Shown: positions 32,685-44,617 of the stretch, piece after piece | How positions within the stretch are numbered: position 1 is the first letter of the stretch | Layout of the letters: each line of letters starts with the position of its first letter | Source: Rugosimonospora africana | GTDB taxonomy: Bacteria; Actinomycetota; Actinomycetes; Mycobacteriales; Micromonosporaceae | Direction: 5' to 3' | Length of the DNA: 64,000 nucleotides | NCBI RefSeq assembly: GCF_016862975.1 | Contig: NZ_BONZ01000022.1 | Coordinates: forward strand, 1 to 64,000 | The notes under the pieces: model-generated | What the model was told of the DNA's origin: nothing | The model's input: only the letters and a program-made list of their open reading frames with translations | The model's database searches: none | Position numbers and translations under genes: made by a program

Positions 32685-33863
32685 ATGGCCGACGCCCTTG
32701 AGGGAATCAGGGTTCTCGACTTCAGCCAGATGATGCTCGGCCCGTACGCCACCCAGCTACTGGGCGATCTCGGCGCGGACGTGATCAAGATCGAACGGCC
32801 CGGCGCCGGCGAGTGGGAACGCGGCCTGGAGATGATGGGCGACCTGGTCGCGGGGGAGTCGGCAGCGTTCCTGGCGATGAACCGCAACAAGCGCTCCGTC
32901 GCCGTCGACCTCAAGGACCCCGTGGCCCGGGACGCTCTGCTCAGGCTCGCCGCGACCTGCGACGTGGTGGTGGAGAACTTCCGGCCGGGCGTCATGGCCC
33001 GGCTCGGCCTGGGCTACGAGCACGTACGGGCGCTGCGCCCGGACATCATCTACTGCTCGGGATCGGGGTGGGGGCAGGACACTCCGGCCGCGCGGGACAA
33101 CCGGCCGGGTCAGGACCTGCTCATCCAGGCCGCGTCGGGGCTGGCGTACCACACCGGGCGGGTCGGCGAGGCGCCGACGTTCGCCGGTACCTCCATTGTG
33201 GACGCCAGCACCGCGCTCACCCTCGCCACCGGCATTTTGGCCGCGCTCGTGGCCCGCGAGCGCCAGGGCATCGGCCAGTGGGTGCAGGTGGACCTGTTCT
33301 CCACCGCCATGGCCGTCCAGTGCCAGGAGATTTCCGCGATCGTCAACCAGCACGCCGAGCCGCCGCGGTCGGCCGCCGGGATCCCGTCGCCGTGGCTGTC
33401 CGCGCCGGCCGGCATGTACCGCACCGCCGACGGCTGGCTCGCCGTGGCGATGGCGCCGCTGGACCGCGTCGCCGAGCTGACCGGTGACGCGGAACTGTCC
33501 ACCTTGGACGCCTGGCGCGACCGGGACGAGGCGAAGCGGCGGCTCGACGCGGTCTTCGTCCGGCGCACCACCGAGGAGTGGCTGAGCGTGCTGCTTCCGG
33601 GTGGCCTGTGGGCGGCGCCCGCCCGCACGGTCAGCGAGGCGGTGGACGAACTGCGTGCCCAACAGTCGCCGATGGTGACCACAGTGGAGCATCCGGCGGC
33701 CGGAACGGTGGAGCTGATCGGCTGCCCGATCACGTTCTCGGAGACCCCGTGGCGGCTGCGGCTGCCACCGCCGCTGGTCGGCCAGCACACCGAGGAGGTC
33801 CTGAGCGAGGTGCTGAGCCCGGACGAGCTTTCCGCGCTGGGCGGGGACCGGGTGCAGCTGTGA
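32685..33863 (+). CDS. CaiB/BaiF class III CoA-transferase
   Basis: This 392-residue enzyme transfers CoA between carboxylic acids. It shows the family features 'LEGIRVLDFSQMMLGPYATQLLGDLGADVIKIERPGAGEWERG', 'NKRSVAVDLKDP', 'VVVENFRPGVMARLGLGYEHVRALRPDIIYCSGSGWGQ' and 'RPGQDLLIQAASGL', where the Asp after GQ is the expected catalytic residue. It lies between the secreted discoidin protein and the ABC ATPase, and its stop overlaps the ATPase start (GTGA). A CoA-transferase coupled to a ribose-type importer suggests that the imported compound is an acid that is activated to a CoA thioester. Confidence 0.9.
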   Translation: MADALEGIRVLDFSQMMLGPYATQLLGDLGADVIKIERPGAGEWERGLEMMGDLVAGESAAFLAMNRNKRSVAVDLKDPVARDALLRLAATCDVVVENFRPGVMARLGLGYEHVRALRPDIIYCSGSGWGQDTPAARDNRPGQDLLIQAASGLAYHTGRVGEAPTFAGTSIVDASTALTLATGILAALVARERQGIGQWVQVDLFSTAMAVQCQEISAIVNQHAEPPRSAAGIPSPWLSAPAGMYRTADGWLAVAMAPLDRVAELTGDAELSTLDAWRDRDEAKRRLDAVFVRRTTEEWLSVLLPGGLWAAPARTVSEAVDELRAQQSPMVTTVEHPAAGTVELIGCPITFSETPWRLRLPPPLVGQHTEEVLSEVLSPDELSALGGDRVQL

Positions 33864-34633
33864 GCACCGGCGACGAGGTGCTGCTGGAGGCACGGGGGCT
33901 GTCGAAGACCTTCGGCCACGTACGTGCCCTGCAGGACGCGAACTTCAGCGCGGGGGCCGGCGAGGTCACCGCGCTGATCGGAGACAACGGCGCGGGCAAG
34001 AGCACGCTGGTGAAGTGCCTGTCCGGCGCCCAGCAGCCGGACCACGGCGAGATCAGATTCGGAGGCCGCCCGCTGCGGCTGGACTCGCCGGCCACCGCAC
34101 AGCGGGCCGGCATCGAGACAGTCTTCCAGGATCTGGCGCTGGCATCGGATCTGGACGCGGCGACCAACCTGTTCCTCGGCCGCGAACTGGTCCGGCCCGG
34201 CGTGCTGGGACGTTTCGGCTTCCTGGACCGCCGCCGGATGCGCGCCGAGGCCGTGCAGGCTTTCGCGGAACTCGGCGTCAACCTCTCCGACGTACGCGCC
34301 CCGGTCGCCGGGCTCTCCGGTGGCCAGCGCCAGTCCGTCGCGGTGGCCCGGTCGGTGGCCTGGGCGACCCGGCTCATCTTCATGGACGAGCCGACCGCGG
34401 CGCTCGGCGTGGTGCAACGCGAGCGGGTGCTCGACACCATCCGGCGCGTGCGCGACCGCGGCGTCGCCGTCGTCCTGATCAGTCACAACATGCCCGAGGT
34501 GTTGGCCGTCGCCGACCGCGTCGAGGTGCTGCGCCTGGGTCGGCGGGTGGCCCGCTTCCGCGCCGCCGACACCACGCTGGAGGAGTTGGTGGGCGCCATG
34601 ACCGGCGCGATCGACAGGGAGGACCAGCAATGA
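33860..34633 (+). CDS. sugar ABC transporter ATPase, single-domain RbsA type
   Basis: This 257-residue ATPase has Walker A 'GDNGAGKSTLVKCL', signature 'LSGGQRQSVAVARSVAW', Walker B 'LIFMDEPTAAL' and the switch His in 'VVLISHN'. It is only half the length of classical RbsA, which has two fused domains, so it must act as a homodimer. The GTG at 33860 overlaps the CoA-transferase stop, and its own stop overlaps the permease start (ATGA). Confidence 0.93.
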   Translation: MSTGDEVLLEARGLSKTFGHVRALQDANFSAGAGEVTALIGDNGAGKSTLVKCLSGAQQPDHGEIRFGGRPLRLDSPATAQRAGIETVFQDLALASDLDAATNLFLGRELVRPGVLGRFGFLDRRRMRAEAVQAFAELGVNLSDVRAPVAGLSGGQRQSVAVARSVAWATRLIFMDEPTAALGVVQRERVLDTIRRVRDRGVAVVLISHNMPEVLAVADRVEVLRLGRRVARFRAADTTLEELVGAMTGAIDREDQQ

Positions 34634-35739
34634 CCGAGACCGGGACCGAGGCGGCGACCCCGCCGCCGGCCGGGGCGCCGCAGCCTTCGCGGCCGGACAC
34701 CGGAGGCGAGCCGGGCCGCGGGCGCCGGGTGCTGCCGCCGGCCGTGGCGCGGCTGGCATACACCAACACGTTCTGGATTTTCCTGGTACTGGTCGCCCTG
34801 GTGGTCTTCTTCGGCGCCATGCAGCCGAACTTCATCAGCGCCGTGAGCCTGCGCAGCCTCGCCGCCGACACCGCACCGCTGCTGCTGATCGCGGTCGGCA
34901 TGACGTACGTCATCATCTCGGCCGGCATCGACCTGTCGGTCGGCTCGGTGCTCATCTTCTCCGGTGTCATCGCGGCCAAGACGATGCTGTGGCTCGGCGG
35001 CGACGGCGCGCACCCGGATGCCGGCGCCACCAGTGCCGGATGGACGGTCACCCTCGCCGGGTGCCTCGCCGGCATGCTCGGAGGGTTGGCCTGGGGGTTG
35101 CTCAACGGGTTCATGGTGGCGCGGATGAAGATTCCCGCACTGATCGCCACCCTCGGCACGCTGGGCATGGCGTTGGGTGCCACGTACCTCATCACCGGCG
35201 GTACCGACGTGCGCGGGATTCCGCTGAACTTCGCCCGTACCGTCGGGTTCGGCCTGGTGGCCGGGGTGCCCTGGCTGGTCATCATCGCCGTACTGGTGAC
35301 CGTGCTGCTCGGCGTGGTGCTGGCCGCCACTCGGTTCGGGTCGCACACCTACGCCATCGGATCCAACGCGGAGGCGGCCCGCCGGGTCGGCATCCGGGTG
35401 GACCGCCACCTCATCAAGGTGTACGGCATCAGCGGATTGCTCGCCGGGATCGCCGGTTGCCTGTCGCTCGCCCACTTCACCACCACCACGATCAGCGGTC
35501 ACACAGCCGACAACCTGTCGGCCATCGCGGCCGTGGTACTCGGCGGCGCGAGCCTCTTCGGCGGCAGCGGTACGGTCACCGGCAGCGCCGTCGGCCTGCT
35601 CGTCCCCGCGGTCCTGCAGAGCGGCTTCGTGACCATCCAGGTCAACCCGTACTGGCAGTATCTGGCCGTCGGCGCCGTCCTGGTACTCGCGGTCTATGTG
35701 GACCAGTTGCGCCGCAAGGCCCGCTCGGCCGGCAGGTGA
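34630..35739 (+). CDS. sugar ABC transporter permease, RbsC type
   Basis: This 369-residue membrane protein of the RbsC/XylH family has a Pro-rich cytoplasmic N-terminus of about 40 residues and then about eight to ten helices. It carries the family segments 'GIDLSVGSVLIFSGVIAAK', 'GLLNGFMVARMKIPALIATLGTLGMALGATYLITGG' and 'VVLGGASLFGGSGTVTGSAVGLLV'. It is the last gene of the operon that begins with the binding lipoprotein at 28423. Confidence 0.93.
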   Translation: MTETGTEAATPPPAGAPQPSRPDTGGEPGRGRRVLPPAVARLAYTNTFWIFLVLVALVVFFGAMQPNFISAVSLRSLAADTAPLLLIAVGMTYVIISAGIDLSVGSVLIFSGVIAAKTMLWLGGDGAHPDAGATSAGWTVTLAGCLAGMLGGLAWGLLNGFMVARMKIPALIATLGTLGMALGATYLITGGTDVRGIPLNFARTVGFGLVAGVPWLVIIAVLVTVLLGVVLAATRFGSHTYAIGSNAEAARRVGIRVDRHLIKVYGISGLLAGIAGCLSLAHFTTTTISGHTADNLSAIAAVVLGGASLFGGSGTVTGSAVGLLVPAVLQSGFVTIQVNPYWQYLAVGAVLVLAVYVDQLRRKARSAGR

Positions 35740-36004: not shown

Positions 36005-37135
36005 GTGACCGATCAGTACCTGTCGCGGCTGGAGGGAGTCATCGCCGACGTCGTCGCGCCGACGTCGACCATGGTGGACCGCGAAGGGGCGTTCCCGCGC
36101 AAGGCCGTCGACGCGCTCGGCGCCGCCGGAATTCTCGGCCTCACCAGTCCGGTGGAGGCGGGTGGTGCCGGTGCCGGGATGCGCGCCGCCGCCACGGTCG
36201 TGGAGCGGCTGAGCCAGGAGTGCGGGTCCACGGCCATGGTCGTGCTCATGCATTACGCGGCGGTACCAGTCATCGCGGCGCACGGCCCGGACGACGTGTG
36301 CGCCGCGATCGCCGGCGGTCATCACCTCACCACCCTCGCCTTTTCGGAGGCCGGCTCCCGTAGCCATTTCTGGTCTCCGATGAGCACCGCGACGCGCTCC
36401 GCGGGCGGCGTACACCTGTCCGCGAACAAGAGTTGGGTGACGTCGGCCGGCGAGGCCGACAGCTACGTGTGGTCCAGCCGACCGCTGATCGCCGACGCCG
36501 GGACCACATTGTGGCTCGTGCCGTCCGACAACCCGGGGTTGGCGGTCGCCGGTGCCTTCGACGGGCTGGGGTTGCGTGGCAACGCGTCCCGACCGATCCG
36601 CGCCGAGAGCGCCGAGGTGCCGGTCTCGGCCATGCTCGGTGCCGACGGCGCCGGCATGGACGCCTCGATGCAACTGGTCCTGCCGTGGTTCCTGGTGCTC
36701 AGCGCGGCGTTCAGCCTCGGCCTGATGCGTGGCACCGTTCGTGAGGCGGTCGCCCACCTGACCGGTACCCGGCTGGAGCACCTGAACCAGACGCTGGCCG
36801 AGCAGCCGCTAGTGAGGTACGACATCGGGCGCATGCAGATCCAGCTGGACCACACGGCGGCACTGATCGAACACACGCTCTCCGGGCTGGAAAACGGCAC
36901 CGACGACGCCCTGCTGCGGGTTCTCGAGGTGAAGGCAGCGTCGGCGGAGGCGGCCATCACGGTCACCGACCTGGCGATGAAGGCGTGCGGCGGAGCCGCC
37001 TTCCGTCGCGAGCTCGGCATCGAACGACGCTTCCGGGACGCCCGGGCCGCGCGGGTGATGGCACCGACCACGGATCGGCTGGTGGACTTCGTCGGCCGTG
37101 CGGTCTGCGGGATGCCGCTGCTGGATCCGGCGTGA
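36005..37135 (+). CDS. acyl-CoA dehydrogenase-fold flavoprotein, atypical active site
   Basis: This 376-residue protein of the acyl-CoA dehydrogenase superfamily has the N-terminal helical domain ('FPRKAVDALGAAGILGLTSPVEAGGAGAGMRAAATVVERLSQECGSTAMVVLMHY'), a central beta domain ('LAFSEAGSRSHFW', 'KSWVTSAGEADSYVW') and a C-terminal helical domain. Where normal dehydrogenases have the YEGT-E type segment near the C-terminus, this one reads 'RVMAPTTDRLVDFVG'. That pattern is nearer to DszC/SfnB-like flavin-dependent monooxygenases, so ordinary CoA-ester oxidation is doubtful. The GTG start follows GAGGAGAG. It is the first of three genes joined by 4-base overlaps. Confidence 0.82.
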   Translation: MTDQYLSRLEGVIADVVAPTSTMVDREGAFPRKAVDALGAAGILGLTSPVEAGGAGAGMRAAATVVERLSQECGSTAMVVLMHYAAVPVIAAHGPDDVCAAIAGGHHLTTLAFSEAGSRSHFWSPMSTATRSAGGVHLSANKSWVTSAGEADSYVWSSRPLIADAGTTLWLVPSDNPGLAVAGAFDGLGLRGNASRPIRAESAEVPVSAMLGADGAGMDASMQLVLPWFLVLSAAFSLGLMRGTVREAVAHLTGTRLEHLNQTLAEQPLVRYDIGRMQIQLDHTAALIEHTLSGLENGTDDALLRVLEVKAASAEAAITVTDLAMKACGGAAFRRELGIERRFRDARAARVMAPTTDRLVDFVGRAVCGMPLLDPA

Positions 37136-37980
37136 CGGAGGAGAGCCTGCTGCTCGGCGCGGTCGCGTACGACCCGAAGGTCGTCGCCATCTGGACCGGC
37201 TTCCGCCACTGGTTGCGCGAGCACGAGCTGCCCTTCGACTATGTGCTCTATTCGAACTACGAACGGCAGGTCGAGGACCTTGTCGCCGGCCGGATCCACG
37301 TGGCATGGAACTCGCCGCTCGCCTGGGTGCGCGCGTTGCGGCTGGCGGCCGCGGTGGGACGGACGGTGCGACCGCTGGTGATGCGGGACACCGACCGGGA
37401 CCTGACCTCGGTGGTGGTGGTACGCGCCGAATCCCGGATCGGTCGAGCGTCCGATCTGGACGGACGGTCGGTGGGCGTCGGCGCCGTCGACTCGCCGCAG
37501 GCCACCCTGATTCCTCTGGCACACCTGGCCGCGCTCGGGGTGAAGGTGGAGGTGCGGCGGTTCGACGTCGGCGTCGGCCTGCACGGCGACCATGTCGGCG
37601 GTGAGCGGGACGCCGTCCGGGCGTTGCTGGCCGGCGAGGTCGACGCGGCCGTCATGCTCGACGGCAGTCACCTGACGTTCACCCGGGAGGGGGTGCTGCC
37701 GCGCGGGGCGGTCCGGATCCTCGCGCAGACCGCACCGTACGACCACTGCAACATGTCGGTGGTCGACCTGGCACCGGCCGACCTGGTCGACCGGTTCGGG
37801 TCGTTGCTGCTCGGCATGGCATACGAGGACCCGGCCGTGCGACCGCTGCTGGACCTGGAGGGCCTGACCCGCTGGATGACCGGCCGTACCGGCGGCTACC
37901 ACGCGCTGGACGCGGCGGTCGAGCTGTTCGGCTTCTACGGTCCGCGCGGTGAACTGGTGTTGCCGGAATACTCACCGTGA
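37132..37980 (+). CDS. PhnD/SsuA-like binding protein without signal peptide
   Basis: This 282-residue type II periplasmic-binding-protein fold is close to PhnD phosphonate- and phosphite-binding proteins: 'LLLGAVAYDPKVVAIWTGFRHWLREHELPFDYVLYSNYERQVEDLVAGRIHVAWNSPLAWV' and 'DLTSVVVVRAESRIGRASDLDGRSVGVGAVDSPQATLIPLAHL'. It starts right at the first beta strand and has no signal sequence, so it should act in the cytoplasm. Both ends overlap neighbouring genes (GTGA), coupling it to the dehydrogenase-fold protein and the diiron fusion protein. No ABC ATPase or permease of the phosphonate type is nearby, so transport is unlikely. Ligand delivery or sensing for the flanking enzymes is an inference. 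Confidence 0.78.
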   Translation: MTEESLLLGAVAYDPKVVAIWTGFRHWLREHELPFDYVLYSNYERQVEDLVAGRIHVAWNSPLAWVRALRLAAAVGRTVRPLVMRDTDRDLTSVVVVRAESRIGRASDLDGRSVGVGAVDSPQATLIPLAHLAALGVKVEVRRFDVGVGLHGDHVGGERDAVRALLAGEVDAAVMLDGSHLTFTREGVLPRGAVRILAQTAPYDHCNMSVVDLAPADLVDRFGSLLLGMAYEDPAVRPLLDLEGLTRWMTGRTGGYHALDAAVELFGFYGPRGELVLPEYSP

Positions 37981-39179
37981 CGCGGCATCGGGTGGACCTG
38001 GCCGGGCTGGGTGTGGACCGCGGTGGCCACCTGTTGCTGCGCCGGGCGCTCGCACCGCTGCCGCTGGGCGAGCGGCTTCAGGTGTTCGGGCACGACCCCG
38101 CGTTGCGGGTGCACCTGCCGGCGTGGTGCCGTTCGGAGGGGCACCGGGTGGAGTCGCCCGAACCGGATTCGGAGTCCGGCCTGGTCGCGGTCGTCGTGCG
38201 GGGCGAAGGACACGACGGGCGGTGGGCCGGCGCCGGCCGGGCCGGATCGGGGCGCCGCGGTGAGGTGGAGAAGGCGCCGCCGGCCCGGTGGGGTCTGGCC
38301 GTCCGCGGCGCTCGACTGGAGGAGGGCGGCCCGGAACCGTACTTCGACCTGGACGACCGCGACCTGGTGTGGGCGAAGGTGGCGCCGCAGCTGTATGCCC
38401 ACGCCGCAGCCCGGCAGTGGGACCCGGACACGGCGGTCGCCTGGGACGAGCCGTTCTCGACACCACCGGACGTCGAGGCCGCGGTGGTTCAGGTGATGAC
38501 GTACCTGGTGGAGAACGAACAGGTCGCACTCGTTGTCCCCGCCCGCTTCCTGGGCCGCGTCCACCCCCACTTTCGCGAGGTGGTGCAACTGCTCGCGGTA
38601 CAGGTCGCGGACGAGGCACGTCACATGGAGGTGTTCACCCGGCGTGCGCTGCTGCGCGGCGACGAGCTGGGCAGTTCCTCGGTCGGCGGTCGGGCCTCAC
38701 TGTTCACTCTCGTCGAGGAGACCGACTTCACGACCTCCTCGTTTCTGCTGTCCGTGCTCGGTGAGGGCAGCTTCGTCAACCTGCTGGACTTTCTCGTCAC
38801 GCACGCGCCCGATCCGGTGACCCGGCGGATCGCGTGGCTGGCCATGCAGGACGAGCGCCGGCACGTCCTGTTCGGCGTGTCCCACCTGGCCGAGCAGTCC
38901 GCGGCGGATCCGAAGCTGCGCGGCCGGCTCCGTGCCTCGATCGAACGCCGCAGTGACGCGCTACGGGACACCGTCGGGCTCAACGCCGACGTCTTCGACG
39001 CGCTGCTGCTGCTGTCCGCCGGCTCCTGGCATCCGGAGGAGATCGAGGCCGGTTACGCCCGCGTCCAGCGGCTGCGGCACGCGATGGACGAGGGGCGGCG
39101 CCGCCGGCTCGAGCGCCTCGGCTTTCCCGCCGACGAGGCCGCCGCGCTGTCCGCGCTGCACACCCGCAACTTCATGTGA
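37977..39179 (+). CDS. TusA-like domain fused to ferritin-like diiron protein
   Basis: This 400-residue fusion protein has a TusA/SirA-like domain at residues about 15-75 ('LLLRRALAPLPLGERLQVFGHDPALRVHLPAWCRSEGHRVES'), but without the N-terminal Cys-Pro that carries sulfur in TusA. Residues about 130-330 are a ferritin-like four-helix bundle with a full diiron ligand set: E179, E213 and H216 in 'DEARHMEV', E263, and E293 and H296 in 'DERRHVLF'. Such bundles bind two irons and activate oxygen. The GTG start overlaps the previous stop. The link to a sulfur-carrier fold and to the two upstream genes suggests an oxygen-dependent step on a sulfur- or CoA-linked substrate; this is not proven. Confidence 0.72.
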   Translation: MTRHRVDLAGLGVDRGGHLLLRRALAPLPLGERLQVFGHDPALRVHLPAWCRSEGHRVESPEPDSESGLVAVVVRGEGHDGRWAGAGRAGSGRRGEVEKAPPARWGLAVRGARLEEGGPEPYFDLDDRDLVWAKVAPQLYAHAAARQWDPDTAVAWDEPFSTPPDVEAAVVQVMTYLVENEQVALVVPARFLGRVHPHFREVVQLLAVQVADEARHMEVFTRRALLRGDELGSSSVGGRASLFTLVEETDFTTSSFLLSVLGEGSFVNLLDFLVTHAPDPVTRRIAWLAMQDERRHVLFGVSHLAEQSAADPKLRGRLRASIERRSDALRDTVGLNADVFDALLLLSAGSWHPEEIEAGYARVQRLRHAMDEGRRRRLERLGFPADEAAALSALHTRNFM

Positions 39180-39478: not shown

Positions 39479-39741
39479 GTTTCTCTCCGTGGATCTTCGC
39501 AGAGCGCCAACTGGTCGTAGACGACCAGAGCGATGCGCGTGGGGTCGTCCGGCGGGTGTACCCGCAGGGTGTGGTGCGGGTTTGGGTGATCGTCAAGGAT
39601 GACAACCGTTTCGATCCCGGCCGGCAGGTCGGCGGGCCAGTCGATCTCGTTGGTGGGTTCCTCCACGAGGACCCGGGCGAGCTTCCCCCGAAGGCCGGCC
39701 TGGTGGTAGCCCAGCGGTGTGAGGCCCTGGTTTTCGGTCAC
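39475..39741 (-). CDS. small protein of unknown function in kinase operon
   Basis: This 88-residue soluble protein has an N-terminal 'TENQGLTPLGYHQAG' and central beta-strand-like segments ('GIETVVILDDHPNPHHTLRVHPPDDPTRIALVVYDQLALCE'). The GTG at 39741 follows GGAAGGGAG and overlaps the stop of the FHA-kinase gene; its own stop overlaps the next start. The conserved-looking 'TPLGYHQAGLRGKLARVLVEEPTNEIDWP' could be a kinase-binding or phosphorylation segment, with several Thr. Function is unknown, and the tight coupling argues for a dedicated partner of the kinases. Confidence 0.65.
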   Translation of the reverse strand: MTENQGLTPLGYHQAGLRGKLARVLVEEPTNEIDWPADLPAGIETVVILDDHPNPHHTLRVHPPDDPTRIALVVYDQLALCEDPRRET

Positions 39742-41129
39742 GGTCCGCTCCCTTCCTCGTCGCCGGGGTGCCGCACCCTCGGCTGATTCCCCGCGACGGC
39801 GAGCAACGCCTGACGCAACTGTTCGGCCGTCTGGAAGGCGCCCTTCGGATCCTCGCGGAGCGCCTCGTCGATCACCTCGGCGAGGGCCGCCGGGATGCCC
39901 GGCTCGCGCTGGCGAACCGGTACCGGCCTGGTTTCCAGGATGGTCTGCCAGGGATCCCTGCCGTGCGCGAAGTCCCGCGGGTGCGCACCGGTCAGGGCGT
40001 GGTACAGGCACGCGGCGAGTGCCCACACGTCCACGGCCGGGGTGACGTGCCGGAAGTTGATCACCTGCTGGCGCGGAACGTACCAGGGCTTGCCGGCGGT
40101 CGTGCCGGTCCGGGTCAGACCGCTGAGCCCGGCCTGGTCGAACGCCTTGGCGAGGCCGAAATCGCCGACCTTCGCCACCGGTGAGCCCTCGGTGCCGCCC
40201 AGCAGAACGTTGTGCGGCGTCAGGTCGCGGTGCACGACACCCTCACCGTGCGCGTACGCCAGCCCCTCCAGGGCCTGGCAGGCCAGCCGCACGGCCGCGG
40301 TGGCTTCCAGCCGCCCACCCTCGCGGGCCAGGAGTTGGTCCAGGCTGCCGCCGGCGCAGTACTCGGTGGTGAAGTAGAACGTGCCATCCGCGAAGCCGGT
40401 GTCGTAGAGCGCCGCGATCTGGGGATGCCGCAGCGCGGCGGTGAGTTCGACCTCGCGGAAGAACCGCGTCCGGGCGGCCTCGCTCGCGGCGACCCTGGGC
40501 AGCATGACCTTCAGTGCCACCTCCCGGCCGGTGTGCTCGTGGCGGGCGAGGTACACCGCGCCCGTCCCGCCGCGACCGAGTTCCCGAAGCAGCGTGTACC
40601 CGGCGATCGGAGCGAGTTCGCGGCGCCCGCCCTGGGCGAGGTTGACCAGGTGCTCGGCCGCGACGCCCGGCTCGGCCTGGCAGCCGGCGCAGCACTCGGA
40701 TTGGCTGCCCAATTCCCGATCGCACGCCACGCACCGGTCCAGGGTGAGGGTGCGCTGCTTCGGGGGAAGGCGGATGTCCACCCGGAAGACGGTCTCGCCG
40801 AGCCGGAGTTCGTCGCCGTCGGCCAGGTCGTGTTCCGGGAAGGGCAGTGCCGCGCCCTCCTCCGGCGTCTGGTGGGACTCGCGTTGGCCGATCTTCTTCC
40901 CGTTGACGAACGTGCCGTTGAGGCTGCCGAAGTCGCGGACGCGCGCGTCGGGCGGGTTGATGTCGAGCAGGCAGTGATGGCGGGAGACGGTGCGGTGGTA
41001 CTCGTCGCTGGGCAGTCGGGGCACGCAGCCGGTGGCGCGGCCGATGACGCAGGTGGTCCGCTCGTCGAACACGTACTCGGTGCGGTCGAGCCGGCCCCGG
41101 ATAAGCCGTAGCGTCACGGTGGCTGTCAT
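39738..41129 (-). CDS. FHA - zinc ribbon - Ser/Thr protein kinase
   Basis: This 463-residue protein has an N-terminal FHA domain (about residues 5-120; G30-R31, S49-R50-H51, N71-G72) that binds phosphothreonine. A CxxC...CxxC ribbon (C133, C136, C147, C150) and a kinase domain (about 178-445) follow. The kinase has a Gly loop 'LGRGGTGAVYLA', Lys207, HRD at 300-302 and DFG at 323-325. The usual Lys of HRDLKPxN is Thr304 (HRDLTPHN), and the APE region reads 'PWYVPRQQ', so the active site is unusual. No membrane segment is present, unlike PknB-type kinases. It overlaps both neighbouring genes by four bases. It probably reads phosphorylation by the WD40 kinase upstream. Confidence 0.88.
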   Translation of the reverse strand: MTATVTLRLIRGRLDRTEYVFDERTTCVIGRATGCVPRLPSDEYHRTVSRHHCLLDINPPDARVRDFGSLNGTFVNGKKIGQRESHQTPEEGAALPFPEHDLADGDELRLGETVFRVDIRLPPKQRTLTLDRCVACDRELGSQSECCAGCQAEPGVAAEHLVNLAQGGRRELAPIAGYTLLRELGRGGTGAVYLARHEHTGREVALKVMLPRVAASEAARTRFFREVELTAALRHPQIAALYDTGFADGTFYFTTEYCAGGSLDQLLAREGGRLEATAAVRLACQALEGLAYAHGEGVVHRDLTPHNVLLGGTEGSPVAKVGDFGLAKAFDQAGLSGLTRTGTTAGKPWYVPRQQVINFRHVTPAVDVWALAACLYHALTGAHPRDFAHGRDPWQTILETRPVPVRQREPGIPAALAEVIDEALREDPKGAFQTAEQLRQALLAVAGNQPRVRHPGDEEGSGP

Positions 41130-44100
41130 CCGCCGGTACCGTCATCCCGCTCGGCCGCGTCCGCAGCCTCGAGGTCCCAGTCGAGTTCCCAGCGCCGCAG
41201 GCCGTTGACGCCCCCGGTGAGCAGGAAACGACCGTCCGTCGTCAACGCGAGGCAGCTGACGCCCTTCTCATAGCCGTCGAGGACCCGCACGCACCGTCCA
41301 CTGCGGACGTTCCACACCGTCATGAACGACCAGTGGGCGCCGGCCACCGCGAAATGCCCGTCCGCGGTCATCCGGATAGTGTGAAACCCGTCCGGCGGGG
41401 GTTGGTCGAACGTCCGCACGACCTTCCCGGTCGTGGCATCCCACAACCGGAGGCCGTCGTCGTCGCCGGAGAGCGCGAGACGCCCGTCCGCGCTGAGGGA
41501 GACGCTGCGGATCTGGGCGGTGAGCCCCCTCCGCGACGGGTCACTCAACCGGCGCACGGGCCGGTCGCCGGGCGGGTCCCACACTTCCACCGCGCCGCCC
41601 CGGACCGTGACGAGACGGCCGTCGTCACCGACGCACAGGTCGTCGATGCTCCAGCCGGCGTGCCGCAGCTCTCGTGTCGGGGACCCGGTCTCCACGTCCC
41701 AGTACCGGACGATGCCGTCTCCGCCGCCGACCACAGCCTGCCGACCGTCCGGATGGAACCGTACCGGCATCGAGCGGTGCATCAAACCCTTCGTCTGGTT
41801 CAGCACGCGCAGGCACGCACCGGTGTCGAGGTCCCACAGCCGCACCGTGCCGTCCCGGCTGGAGGACAGGGCCCGCCGCCGGTCGGGGCCCAGGGACACC
41901 GACTCGACCATCTTCTGGTGGCCTTCGAGTACCCGCAGGCACGTCCCGCCCTCGAGGTCCCACACCCGCACCGTCCCCTCGCCGTCGCCGGAGAGCCCGG
42001 TCCCGCCGTCGTCGGACACGTCCACCGCCAGTACCTGCTTGCTGTGTCCGGCCAGCCACATCGACGACCAGGCGGTGCGCAGCTCCGTCCGCTCGACGCG
42101 GCGGGCAAGTGCCCACCAGGCCGACATGACGCGCGGAGCCCGCTCGTACCCCTCGATCGCGCGCGCCTGCCGGAGCAGGTCGAGCGCCGCCGGCAGACGA
42201 CCGCCCGCCATGGACTGGTCGGCCTCGGCCAGCAGCGCGTTCACCCGGCCGCTGATCCGGCTCAACTCGACGTGCCGGCGCGGCCGGGACAACCGTGGCG
42301 TGCCGCGGTACTCACCCGGCAGCTGCCACTGTCGCACCGTCCCGTCCTGGCCGGCCGACAGCCCGAACCTCGTGTCCGCGTCCAGCTGGACCACGCTGGT
42401 GTCGCCGCGGTGCCCCTCGAAGGTCCGCAGGCACCGTTCGCTGTCCAGTTCCCACAGCCGGACGTGACCGCCGTCGCCGGAGAGAAGGAAACGACCGTCG
42501 GCGCTGAGGGAGAGGCTGTCGGGTGTGCTCCCGCCGGTCAGCAGGCGCACACAGCGACCGTCGCTGAGGTCCCAGACCCGGATCGTCCCGCCGTGTTGTC
42601 CGGTGGCGGCGAACCGGCCGTCGGTACTGAGACACAGGGCGGTCACCCCGGAGTCGTGTCCGGCCAGCTCCCGCCGGCACCGCCCGCCGGCCAGGTCCCA
42701 CAGCCGCACGACGGTCTCCCGGTCGCCTTCGCGCCCGCGCCAACCGACCGACAGCCCAAGGCGGCCGTCGGCACTGACCGACACCAACCGTCCCGCCGCC
42801 GCCCCGTCGAGCGTCCTTTCCCGCCCACCGGGGATGTCCCACATGCGGAGCACGCCGTCCAGGCCGGAATAGAGTGCCAGGCGCCCGTCGGGAGTCAGCC
42901 GGACCGCGGTGTGTTGCACCCGCAGGGCCAGCTCGCCGATCCCGTCGCTGCCGTCCCAGGACGGCGGGTTCGGGCTGGCGTAGAGGCGGCGGGCCCTGGG
43001 TGAGCCTCCGAACCGGCTCTTGGTCAGCTCCCAGAACCACACGGTCTCGTCCTCACAGACGGAGACGGCGAACCGCTCGTCGGGCGTGAGGTCGACCGCG
43101 TGTACCGGCCGGCGGTGCTTCTTGAGCGTGCGCACGCACCGTCCACTATGGACGTCCCAGAGCCGGACCGCGCCGTCCCAGTCGCCGGACAGCATCGAGT
43201 GTCCGTCGGGGGTCAGGGCCACCGCGACCCGGTGCTCGTTCTCCTTCAGTGAGTACCGGTCACGCGGGCGTCGGGGCCACGGCACCTGCCACTCGCGGGC
43301 GCAGCGGGCGTCGACGACCTCGTGGGAACGGACCAGGGTCAGGGCCGCGAGGATCTCGGGTTCCTCCGGCCGTTCCCTCGCCACCTCGTCGAGCAACGCA
43401 CGCGCCGTGCTCAGGTCGCCGCGTTCCAGATGGATCTGGGCGAGCACGTACCGGATCTCCCAGGGGTCACTGGTGTCCGCGCGGGTCGCCTCGATCTCGG
43501 CGATGAACGCGTGGTCCGGGAGCACCCCGCGGCGCCACCTCGCCAGTCCGGCGTTGTACCTGGCCCGCGCGTTGCGCGGATCGGCTGCCAGCGCCTGCGC
43601 GAACGCCTTGTCGGCCTCGGCCGGCCGGTCGAGGTCGAGCAGCGACACCGCCCGGTTGTTGAGTTCGTCGGTGAGCAGGTCGGCCGTGGCGGGTACCGGT
43701 CGCGGATAGGCGTGGCCGGCGACGCCCGGGTAGATGCCGATCAGCTCGGTGGCGATGTCGGCCATGGAACCCGGCCGGTCGGCGGGATCCCGGCGCAGGC
43801 ACCGCGCGAGCAGATCGCCGAGGGCCGGCGGGATGGCGACGACGCTTTCCGCGTCACCCGTCCGGTAGCCGGTCAAGGCGGCACCCGCGATGGGTCCGGC
43901 CATCCAGGTCGCCTCGCCGGCGCACATCTCCAGCACCGACACGGCGAAGCTGTAGATGTCGGTGCGCCGCCCCACCGGCTTTCCCGCCGCCTGCTCGGGT
44001 GAGGCGTACAACGGCGTCATCCCGGTGCCGCCGGGCACCAGAATGCTGGCACCGGGCGGCGCGTCGGGGCCGGCCGTGGCCTCCAGCTCCCGTGCCCGGG

Positions 44101-44617
44101 CCATGCCGAAGTCGGTGACCTTCGCGGTGACCGAACCATCCTCGGTGTCGAGCAACACGTTGGCGGGCTTGACGTCCCGGTGCACCAGGCCGCGGCTGTG
44201 CGCGTGGTCGAGTCCCCACGCGGTCTGGATCGCCACGTCCAGGATCCGAGCCAGCACCTCGGGGGGCTCACCCTGGTACAGCCGCCGGTCGCGGATCCAC
44301 TCATGCAGGCTGCCGCCGGGAACGTACTCGGCGAACACCCGGGGCACCCCGCCGAGCACGCGGACGTAATAGCAGTTGCACACGTGCGGATGCAGCCCCA
44401 GCGACACCCACGTCTCCGCCTCGGCGACGAACCGCCGCTGATCCTCCGCACTGCGGAACAACTCCGGTCGCGGGCTCTTCACGGCGAGGTCGATGTCCCA
44501 GATCAGGTGCCGGACCCGGTGCACCAGGCCCATCCCGCCGAGTTCGTGTACGAGGGTCACCTCGTACCGGCCGTCGACCACCTCGCCGACCCGCCAGGTG
44601 TCCGTGGCCTCACCCAT
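41126..44617 (-). CDS. Ser/Thr kinase - TPR - WD40 repeat protein
   Basis: This 1163-residue cytoplasmic protein has a kinase domain at about residues 18-285, with Lys47 in 'LAVKSPR', HRDVKPAN at 147-154 and DFG at 169-171, so it is probably active. Helical TPR-like repeats at about 315-425 ('LLDLDRPAEADKAFAQALAADPRNARARYNAGLARWRRG') follow. The rest is roughly a dozen WD40 repeats, such as 'GHDSGVTALCLSTDGRFAATGQHGGTIRVWDL', in two blocks. A helical insert ('ALLAEADQSMAGGRLPAALDLLRQARAIEGY') separates the blocks, giving perhaps two propellers. It overlaps the FHA gene by eight bases and the FHA-kinase gene by four. The WD40 part probably senses or scaffolds partners. Confidence 0.9.
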   Translation of the reverse strand: MGEATDTWRVGEVVDGRYEVTLVHELGGMGLVHRVRHLIWDIDLAVKSPRPELFRSAEDQRRFVAEAETWVSLGLHPHVCNCYYVRVLGGVPRVFAEYVPGGSLHEWIRDRRLYQGEPPEVLARILDVAIQTAWGLDHAHSRGLVHRDVKPANVLLDTEDGSVTAKVTDFGMARARELEATAGPDAPPGASILVPGGTGMTPLYASPEQAAGKPVGRRTDIYSFAVSVLEMCAGEATWMAGPIAGAALTGYRTGDAESVVAIPPALGDLLARCLRRDPADRPGSMADIATELIGIYPGVAGHAYPRPVPATADLLTDELNNRAVSLLDLDRPAEADKAFAQALAADPRNARARYNAGLARWRRGVLPDHAFIAEIEATRADTSDPWEIRYVLAQIHLERGDLSTARALLDEVARERPEEPEILAALTLVRSHEVVDARCAREWQVPWPRRPRDRYSLKENEHRVAVALTPDGHSMLSGDWDGAVRLWDVHSGRCVRTLKKHRRPVHAVDLTPDERFAVSVCEDETVWFWELTKSRFGGSPRARRLYASPNPPSWDGSDGIGELALRVQHTAVRLTPDGRLALYSGLDGVLRMWDIPGGRERTLDGAAAGRLVSVSADGRLGLSVGWRGREGDRETVVRLWDLAGGRCRRELAGHDSGVTALCLSTDGRFAATGQHGGTIRVWDLSDGRCVRLLTGGSTPDSLSLSADGRFLLSGDGGHVRLWELDSERCLRTFEGHRGDTSVVQLDADTRFGLSAGQDGTVRQWQLPGEYRGTPRLSRPRRHVELSRISGRVNALLAEADQSMAGGRLPAALDLLRQARAIEGYERAPRVMSAWWALARRVERTELRTAWSSMWLAGHSKQVLAVDVSDDGGTGLSGDGEGTVRVWDLEGGTCLRVLEGHQKMVESVSLGPDRRRALSSSRDGTVRLWDLDTGACLRVLNQTKGLMHRSMPVRFHPDGRQAVVGGGDGIVRYWDVETGSPTRELRHAGWSIDDLCVGDDGRLVTVRGGAVEVWDPPGDRPVRRLSDPSRRGLTAQIRSVSLSADGRLALSGDDDGLRLWDATTGKVVRTFDQPPPDGFHTIRMTADGHFAVAGAHWSFMTVWNVRSGRCVRVLDGYEKGVSCLALTTDGRFLLTGGVNGLRRWELDWDLEAADAAERDDGTGG

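Follow-up and report, generated by a model that had tools for sequence, protein, structure and literature searches.

What might three overlapping genes do whose products resemble a dehydrogenase that has lost its catalytic base, a phosphonate-binding protein and a sulfur carrier fused to a diiron protein? We addressed this question for a locus of Rugosimonospora africana (assembly GCF_016862975.1, contig NZ_BONZ01000022.1), using a window of 64,000 nucleotides that spans positions 1 to 64,000 of the contig. The three genes, P1, P2 and P3, follow one another on the + strand at positions 36005-39179, and successive pairs are joined via 4-base GTGA overlaps; coordinates, frames and overlaps are as given in a preliminary description of the window made from its sequence. 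That description had assigned the trio to a pathway whose substrate would be sulfur- or phosphonate-like. Comparison across genomes moves the interpretation to selenium: the association of the trio with SelD is strong, and the chemistry that we propose for it is tentative. The features on which the argument draws are as follows.

36005..37135, + strand: P1, 376 residues, a flavoprotein of the acyl-CoA dehydrogenase fold, Rv1679/FadE16-like, without the catalytic Glu.
37058..37069, + strand: MAPT motif of P1 replacing YEGT, placed by alignment to human SCAD (A353 codon at 37061-37063).
37132..37980, + strand: P2, 282 residues, a predicted cytoplasmic binding-type protein of the PhnD/PtxB fold, Rv1680-like.
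37744..37749, + strand: codons of H205 and C206 in P2, the latter residue aligned with the Tyr that caps the ligand in PtxB/PhnD.
37977..39179, + strand: P3, 400 residues, which fuses a TusA-like domain with a bundle like that of diiron oxygenases.
37986..38201, + strand: residues 4-75 of P3, a TusA-like domain that lacks the carrier Cys; the order of secondary structure elements fits the TusA topology.
38454..39167, + strand: residues 160-397 of P3, which form the diiron bundle; the codons of its ligands begin at 38511, 38613, 38622, 38763, 38853 and 38862.

To determine whether the trio is kept as a unit, we scanned 84,980 species genomes for relatives of P3, which yielded 201, and analysed the best 80 of these loci. 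All are labelled as actinobacterial, bar one short contig of a bin labelled Chloroflexota. P2 adjoins P3 in 80/80 loci, and P1 lies upstream of the pair (>200 bits) in 72 of them; it is only fragmentary in L060, and no P1 was found within the locus in seven others, where the P2-P3 pair stays (L049, L063, L071, L073, L074, L088 and L097). According to automatic gene calls, window included, 64 of the 79 measurable P2-P3 pairs have a gap of -4, and 68/71 P1-P2 pairs one of at most 30 bp; pairs split by gene calling were left out of these counts, and for the window itself the calls placed the start of P3 late. Since the tight gaps recur across loci, the arrangement is not one of chance, and the three families do stay together across actinomycetes. 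One locus (L038:5568-9110) combines P2 and P3 of the trio type with a P1 resembling the Rv1679 type, which otherwise belongs to a radical S-adenosylmethionine (SAM) cluster considered below, at a P1-P2 spacing of 373 bp. A plasmid origin was rejected, as a tblastn search of P3 against PLSDB gave no match.

The genomes that hold the trio are almost without exception genomes that hold SelD. SelD scored above its curated cut-off in 79 of the 80 genomes behind the trio loci (49/50 and 30/30), as against 81 of the 296 genomes of a class sample (Fisher 1e-34, for overlapping samples of related genomes drawn in different frames). Within the class sample, all five genomes whose P3 orthologue reaches ≥60% identity (G000, G104, G220, G331 and G333) have SelD, compared with 76/291 of the others (p 0.0014); G111, with a partial P3 match of 32%, was left out of this count. 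The genus of G333, presumed Streptomyces, is represented by 159 genomes, 6 with P3 and 28 with SelD, and SelD is present in 5/6 P3 genomes versus 23/153 others (p 6.5e-4; this sample overlaps the class sample and the trio-locus genomes). In the single SelD-less P3 genome of this genus (G467, L135:7535-9879) the trio has decayed: only the C-terminal part of P1 is left, in two frames, P2 is in two frames, and P3 aligns from residue 38 only. Judged by its reading frames, the trio is thus decaying where SelD is gone. All p-values serve as guides only, given the relatedness of the genomes and the choice of the 80 as the best hits of 201. Haft and Self (PMC2276186) used as a criterion homologues that stay confined to genomes with selD well down the list of hits, some of them colocalised with selD. 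The trio shows the same pattern in 79 of the 80 best genomes of the 201 hits, with 14/80 colocalised and one exception.

Physical linkage points the same way. Neighbours of the trio were grouped by all-against-all clustering, and representatives of the families were scored against NCBIfam cut-offs. Those that passed include SelD, SelA and SelB (L076) as well as SenA and SenB (L042), and formate dehydrogenase parts near the trio break at the usual selenocysteine position. A tblastn search with the family representatives found at least one selenium gene within about 8 kb in 19/80 loci, and SelD within 14 of the 80, where 0.16 would be expected by chance (assuming 16 kb in 8 Mb). The gene orders vary: selA-selB-selD upstream and fdh downstream of the trio (L048, L052 and L076), the trio followed by selAB-selD (L061), fdh upstream and selD-selA-selB downstream (L091, L095 and L096), or senA and senB close by (L042, L046, L067, L070 and L077).

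With which selenium role does the trio go? SelA was found in 47 of the 50 trio genomes tested and SenB in six. The two trio genomes that have SelD but no SelA match (G365 and G388) both have SenB, so that the trio goes with SelD and not with one selenium sink. A role in selenocysteine synthesis only was rejected on account of these two genomes, and one in selenoneine synthesis only on account of the few genomes with SenB. This pattern fits a role in selenium supply but does not prove one. The window's own genome carries selD, a selenocysteine tRNA gene, selA, selB and fdhCBA on another contig (contig 67, L134); its fdhA has an in-frame UGA after ENQARI, and its selD encodes the GGCACK motif in one open frame. 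The SelD of this genome has a long insert after the catalytic motif. In the class sample, 17 of 92 SelA genomes are without SelD above cut-off, and 16 of these 17 are weaker, mostly partial hits in one family.

We next considered what the three proteins could contribute. For residue conservation 71 P1, 79 P2 and 81 P3 sequences were kept, one P1 and one P2 of odd length having been dropped. P1 exceeds the Pfam cut-offs for the N, M and C domains of acyl-CoA dehydrogenases. In human SCAD the Glu of the YEGTS segment is the catalytic residue; MAPTT of P1 aligns with this segment, and A353, identical in 71/71 sequences, falls on the Glu position. The MAPT motif is common to P1 and Rv1679-type proteins. 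Some acyl-CoA dehydrogenases, such as isovaleryl-CoA dehydrogenase, carry the catalytic Glu at a second site, and inspection by eye of 16 sequences revealed no Glu there either. By its sequence, then, P1 is not an ordinary acyl-CoA dehydrogenase, in line with the dehydrogenase fold and missing catalytic segment that the preliminary description had reported. With 87 bits for SfnB and 35 bits for DszC, it also stays under the NCBIfam cut-offs of these monooxygenases (431 and 850), and it reaches 396 bits against NF049984 (Rv1679; cut-off 600).

P2 matches PF12974 at 1.8e-30, within the Pfam cut-off, and scores 223 bits against NF049985 (Rv1680; cut-off 400). Its predicted structure (predicted local distance difference test, pLDDT, 96.4) has PhnD and PtxB as top Foldseek matches. 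The first strand of the model spans residues 6-11 and the relatives in the alignment begin at the same place, which leaves no room for a signal peptide; by sequence, P2 is predicted to be cytoplasmic. Clustering of neighbours across the 81 loci revealed no ABC (ATP-binding cassette) partner recurring at a fixed place beside it. Both properties, no signal peptide and no transporter, had been noted for the window. Phosphonates had been considered as ligands, and here the pocket argues otherwise. That of Te_PtxB is formed by Y55, Y100, S130-T131-S132, H160 and a capping Y208 that packs on the ligand R1 group (PMC5700983, in the excerpts available). In the alignment, Y55 is kept as Y43 and S130 as S121, whereas T131-S132 correspond to P122-Q123, H160 to R159 and Y208 to C206. 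P2 therefore does not show the STS-H oxyanion motif and capping Tyr of phosphonate-binding proteins (S-P-Q, R159, C206); with a single Ser of the motif left and a Cys replacing the capping Tyr, a phosphonate ligand is less likely. H205 and C206 are present in 79/79 trio-type P2 sequences, window included, and invariant in a set of 44 that joins 36 of the trio type with 8 of the radical SAM variant. A precedent for a needed Cys comes from AioX, a member of the same protein superfamily, in which Cys108 is required for arsenite binding (PMC7533571).

P3 gives sub-threshold Pfam matches to TusA (5.7e-6, 26.5 bits; cut-off 28.6) and AurF (1.3e-4, 21.6 bits; cut-off 29.6). Its AlphaFold model (pLDDT 85.9; predicted template modelling score 0.88) consists of a β-α-β-α-β-β N-domain followed by a bundle. 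The top PDB profile matches of the N-domain are TusA proteins, although weak (E 0.047 and 0.051). In TusA the sulfur-carrying Cys sits in a CPxP motif. The alignment places R15 of the window's P3 at the position of this Cys, and none of the 79 letters listed at the column, for 81 sequences, is a Cys; a second Cys, C51, is present in 69/81. By contrast, E179, E213, H216, E263, E293 and H296 are identical in 81/81 P3 sequences, window included, so the combination of a Cys-less TusA-like domain with a complete diiron ligand set described for the window extends to its homologues. A VIA-align structure search with residues 140-397 listed 50 matches, all with diiron proteins, at Z 16.7-19.9 and 12-22% identity. 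They include the azoxy synthase VlmB (Z 19.9, root-mean-square deviation 3.7 over 254 residues), aldehyde-deformylating oxygenase (Z 19.5, 2.6 over 214 residues) and R2lox (Z about 17). P3 thus looks like a putative O2-activating diiron protein.

Taken together, the conserved operon, its near-exclusive occurrence in SelD genomes, its linkage to selenium genes, the diiron site, the lost dehydrogenase base and the invariant cap Cys lead us to read the trio as an O2-dependent selenium-metabolism module of actinobacteria that works with SelD. We propose that P2 would capture a small selenium species in the cytoplasm, selenite being one candidate and a short organoselenium acid, for example methylseleninate, the other, and that Cys206 would contact or trap this ligand. 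Oxidation of the captured species by P1, as the flavoprotein, and P3, as the diiron protein, would break the C-Se bond, the TusA-like domain of P3 possibly acting as a docking domain. After reduction, the inorganic selenium set free would be available to SelD for making selenocysteine or selenoneine. We infer every chemical step of this scheme. With the direction of supply and the chemistry included, we give this reading a probability of about 0.5. The link to selenium as such is highly probable; the supply direction and chemistry, considered by themselves, are tentative and fall somewhat short of even odds. Of the oxygen-dependent pathway on a sulfur- or phosphonate-like molecule proposed earlier, the use of oxygen is supported in that P3 looks O2-activating, and sulfur-like chemistry is close; for the substrate, SelD in 79/80 genomes points to selenium.

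Several observations weigh against this interpretation. Saccharothrix algeriensis (G394) has a full-length trio (L080:6022-9200) and no match to SelD, SelA or SenB. The genomes tested are the best 80 of 201 P3 hits, and the remaining 121 might hold more exceptions. Of the SelD genomes in the class sample, 76/81 do without the trio, which is therefore accessory. SelA is present in 75/81 SelD genomes of that sample anyway, so the SelA pattern has little power to tell supply from sink, and of the two genomes without SelA, G365 may be incomplete, being a metagenome bin of 3.0 Mb. The cap position of C206 is one assigned by sequence alignment.

A further point of this kind comes from a sister cluster. 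For nine genomes in the class sample, the sole P2 homologue is a more distant one (36-41% identity over long matches). Eight of these loci were examined (all but that of G066; L126-L133, for example the cluster at L127:5783-8789). In each, the gene after P1 and P2 has 332-453 codons, and in the two loci scanned it encodes a radical SAM protein of the Rv1681 family above cut-off. In the loci scanned, DoxD-like genes lie nearby in L127 and L129 and Rv1678-type membrane genes in L126 and L127. SelD is present in 5/9 of these genomes and in 71/282 others (p 0.055); because the cluster occurs in four of the nine genomes without SelD, the chemistry of P1 and P2 need not involve selenium. The exchange of a radical SAM protein for a diiron protein beside P1-P2 suggests, by analogy, that the sister cluster and the trio may be O2-independent and O2-dependent versions of one pathway, much as BchE and AcsF are in chlorophyll synthesis. 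A more specific scheme, in which the PhnD-fold P2 would hold selenophosphate or a seleninate under its invariant Cys and pass it to P3 and to P1, a repurposed acyl-CoA dehydrogenase, in a new SelD-linked pathway with Rv1679-Rv1681 as the radical SAM counterpart, is possible but doubtful.

Which other explanations account for these data? The one that survives best sees in the trio another way of using selenium that depends on SelD, with P2 binding selenophosphate and taking its selenium, and P1 and P3 building a selenium-containing small molecule or cofactor. It would have the same dependence on SelD in 79/80 genomes, and enzymes with the fold of substrate-binding proteins are known in menaquinone synthesis. 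Selenophosphate is an anion with the shape of a phosphonate, its selenium would be directed at Cys206, and the nearest solved relatives of P2 bind phosphite and phosphonates; excerpts of PMC5700983 describe the R1 substituent of the ligand as packing on the residue that matches Cys206. However, the STS-H motif is mostly lost in P2 (S121-P122-Q123, R159), the radical SAM variant shares this Cys and is found in SelD-less genomes, and none of the 49 trio genomes with SelD lacks both SelA and SenB, a count of low power given the background. We consider this further use unlikely.

It is less likely still that the trio is an O2-dependent version of the Rv1679-Rv1681 pathway acting on sulfur or another non-selenium compound, tied to SelD indirectly through a shared habitat or gene islands. 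The P1-P2 pair is indeed common to the radical SAM cluster, with DoxD-type proteins near it in two loci scanned, the association of that cluster with SelD is weak, and one SelD-less genome keeps the trio; yet SelD in 79/80 genomes, the decay in a SelD-less presumed Streptomyces and the varied gene orders with sel and sen genes are hard to obtain by an indirect link, and we judge this explanation improbable. A part like that of FdhD or TusA, in which the trio would mature the molybdenum cofactor or selenocysteine site of formate dehydrogenase, is very improbable, even though fdhA/B/C adjoin the trio in Streptomyces and Mycobacterium loci and the Rv1681 relative, once named MoeX, has weak MoaA matches, for two trio genomes with SelD have no SelA match and presumably no selenocysteine (one of them being the metagenome bin) and several trios adjoin senAB and not fdh.

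In the window itself, the trio is preceded at 32685-35739 by genes for a CoA-transferase III, a sugar-type ABC ATPase and a BPD_transp_2 permease, which overlap each other. Transport by the trio together with these ABC genes was rejected, as the ATPase family is present in just 9/81 loci, with no fixed place or strand. Further downstream (39738-44617, - strand) lie a gene combining an FHA domain with a Ser/Thr kinase and, upstream of that gene, a kinase fused to WD40 repeats (Pfam). Of the genes that flank the trio in the window, neither the CoA-transferase nor the ABC genes nor the kinases turn up in a constant position across the trio loci.

As an O2-dependent selenium module, the trio bears on how aerobic bacteria acquire selenium for SelD, and on uses of selenium beyond selenocysteine, tRNA, molybdenum hydroxylases and selenoneine. 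It is probably an undescribed O2-using step by which soil bacteria obtain or use selenium, and its pairing with SelD in 79/80 genomes offers a concrete handle: one operon, three proteins and named candidate ligands. Candidate selenium genes published so far include YedE, YedF, a LysR-like gene and DUF3343 (PMC5322559 and PMC9312934, in excerpts). We found no description of the trio in the accessible portions of the open-access literature on Rv1679, Rv1680, FadE16 and MoeX, on selenium in conjunction with TusA, acyl-CoA dehydrogenase or diiron proteins, and on selenium gene surveys. This agrees with the preliminary description, which knew of no system of this composition. As far as could be seen, the individual folds are known, and the assembly of the trio and its tie to SelD are new; the P1-P2 pair already has NCBIfam names, after Rv1679 and Rv1680.

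Each protein has relatives of known type from which it departs. The flavin monooxygenases DszC and MsuC have the acyl-CoA dehydrogenase fold without the dehydrogenase Glu, and P1 shares this fold with DszC, SfnB and MsuC, but it scores far below the NCBIfam cut-offs of both DszC and SfnB. P2 has in common with PhnD and PtxB the fold, a conserved Tyr (Y43, equivalent to Te_PtxB Y55) and one Ser of the STS motif; unlike them, it is probably cytoplasmic and without a recurrent ABC partner, and the STS, His and cap Tyr of their pocket are replaced by SPQ, Arg and the invariant Cys. P3 shares the bundle fold and complete ligand set of VlmB, AurF, aldehyde-deformylating oxygenase and R2lox, but differs in its TusA-like N-domain and in its Pfam AurF score under cut-off.

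Among SelD-linked systems, the SirA/TusA-DsrE fusion YedF (TIGR03527) has, like P3, a TusA-like N-domain in a fusion nearly confined to SelD genomes (PMC5322559 and PMC2276186, in part); its C-terminal partner is DsrE and it carries the CPXP motif, whereas P3 has a diiron bundle and no CPXP. The SenABC selenoneine pathway is, like the trio, a SelD-linked selenium module of actinobacteria and adjoins it in some loci, yet the two have no protein family in common (no SenA or SenB family is among the Pfam and NCBIfam matches of P1-P3) and SenB is present in just 6/50 trio genomes. The cluster Rv1679-Rv1680-Rv1681 (NF049984, NF049985 and NF049973) has homologous P1 and P2 genes in the same order and with the same MAPT and HC motifs, although P1 and P2 of the trio score under its NCBIfam cut-offs (396/600 and 223/400 bits). 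Its third gene encodes a radical SAM protein in place of the TusA-diiron protein, DoxD-like or Rv1678-type membrane genes accompany it in the loci scanned, and it is found in SelD-less genomes too. For these uncharacterised genes, the trio is apparently the first functional lead.

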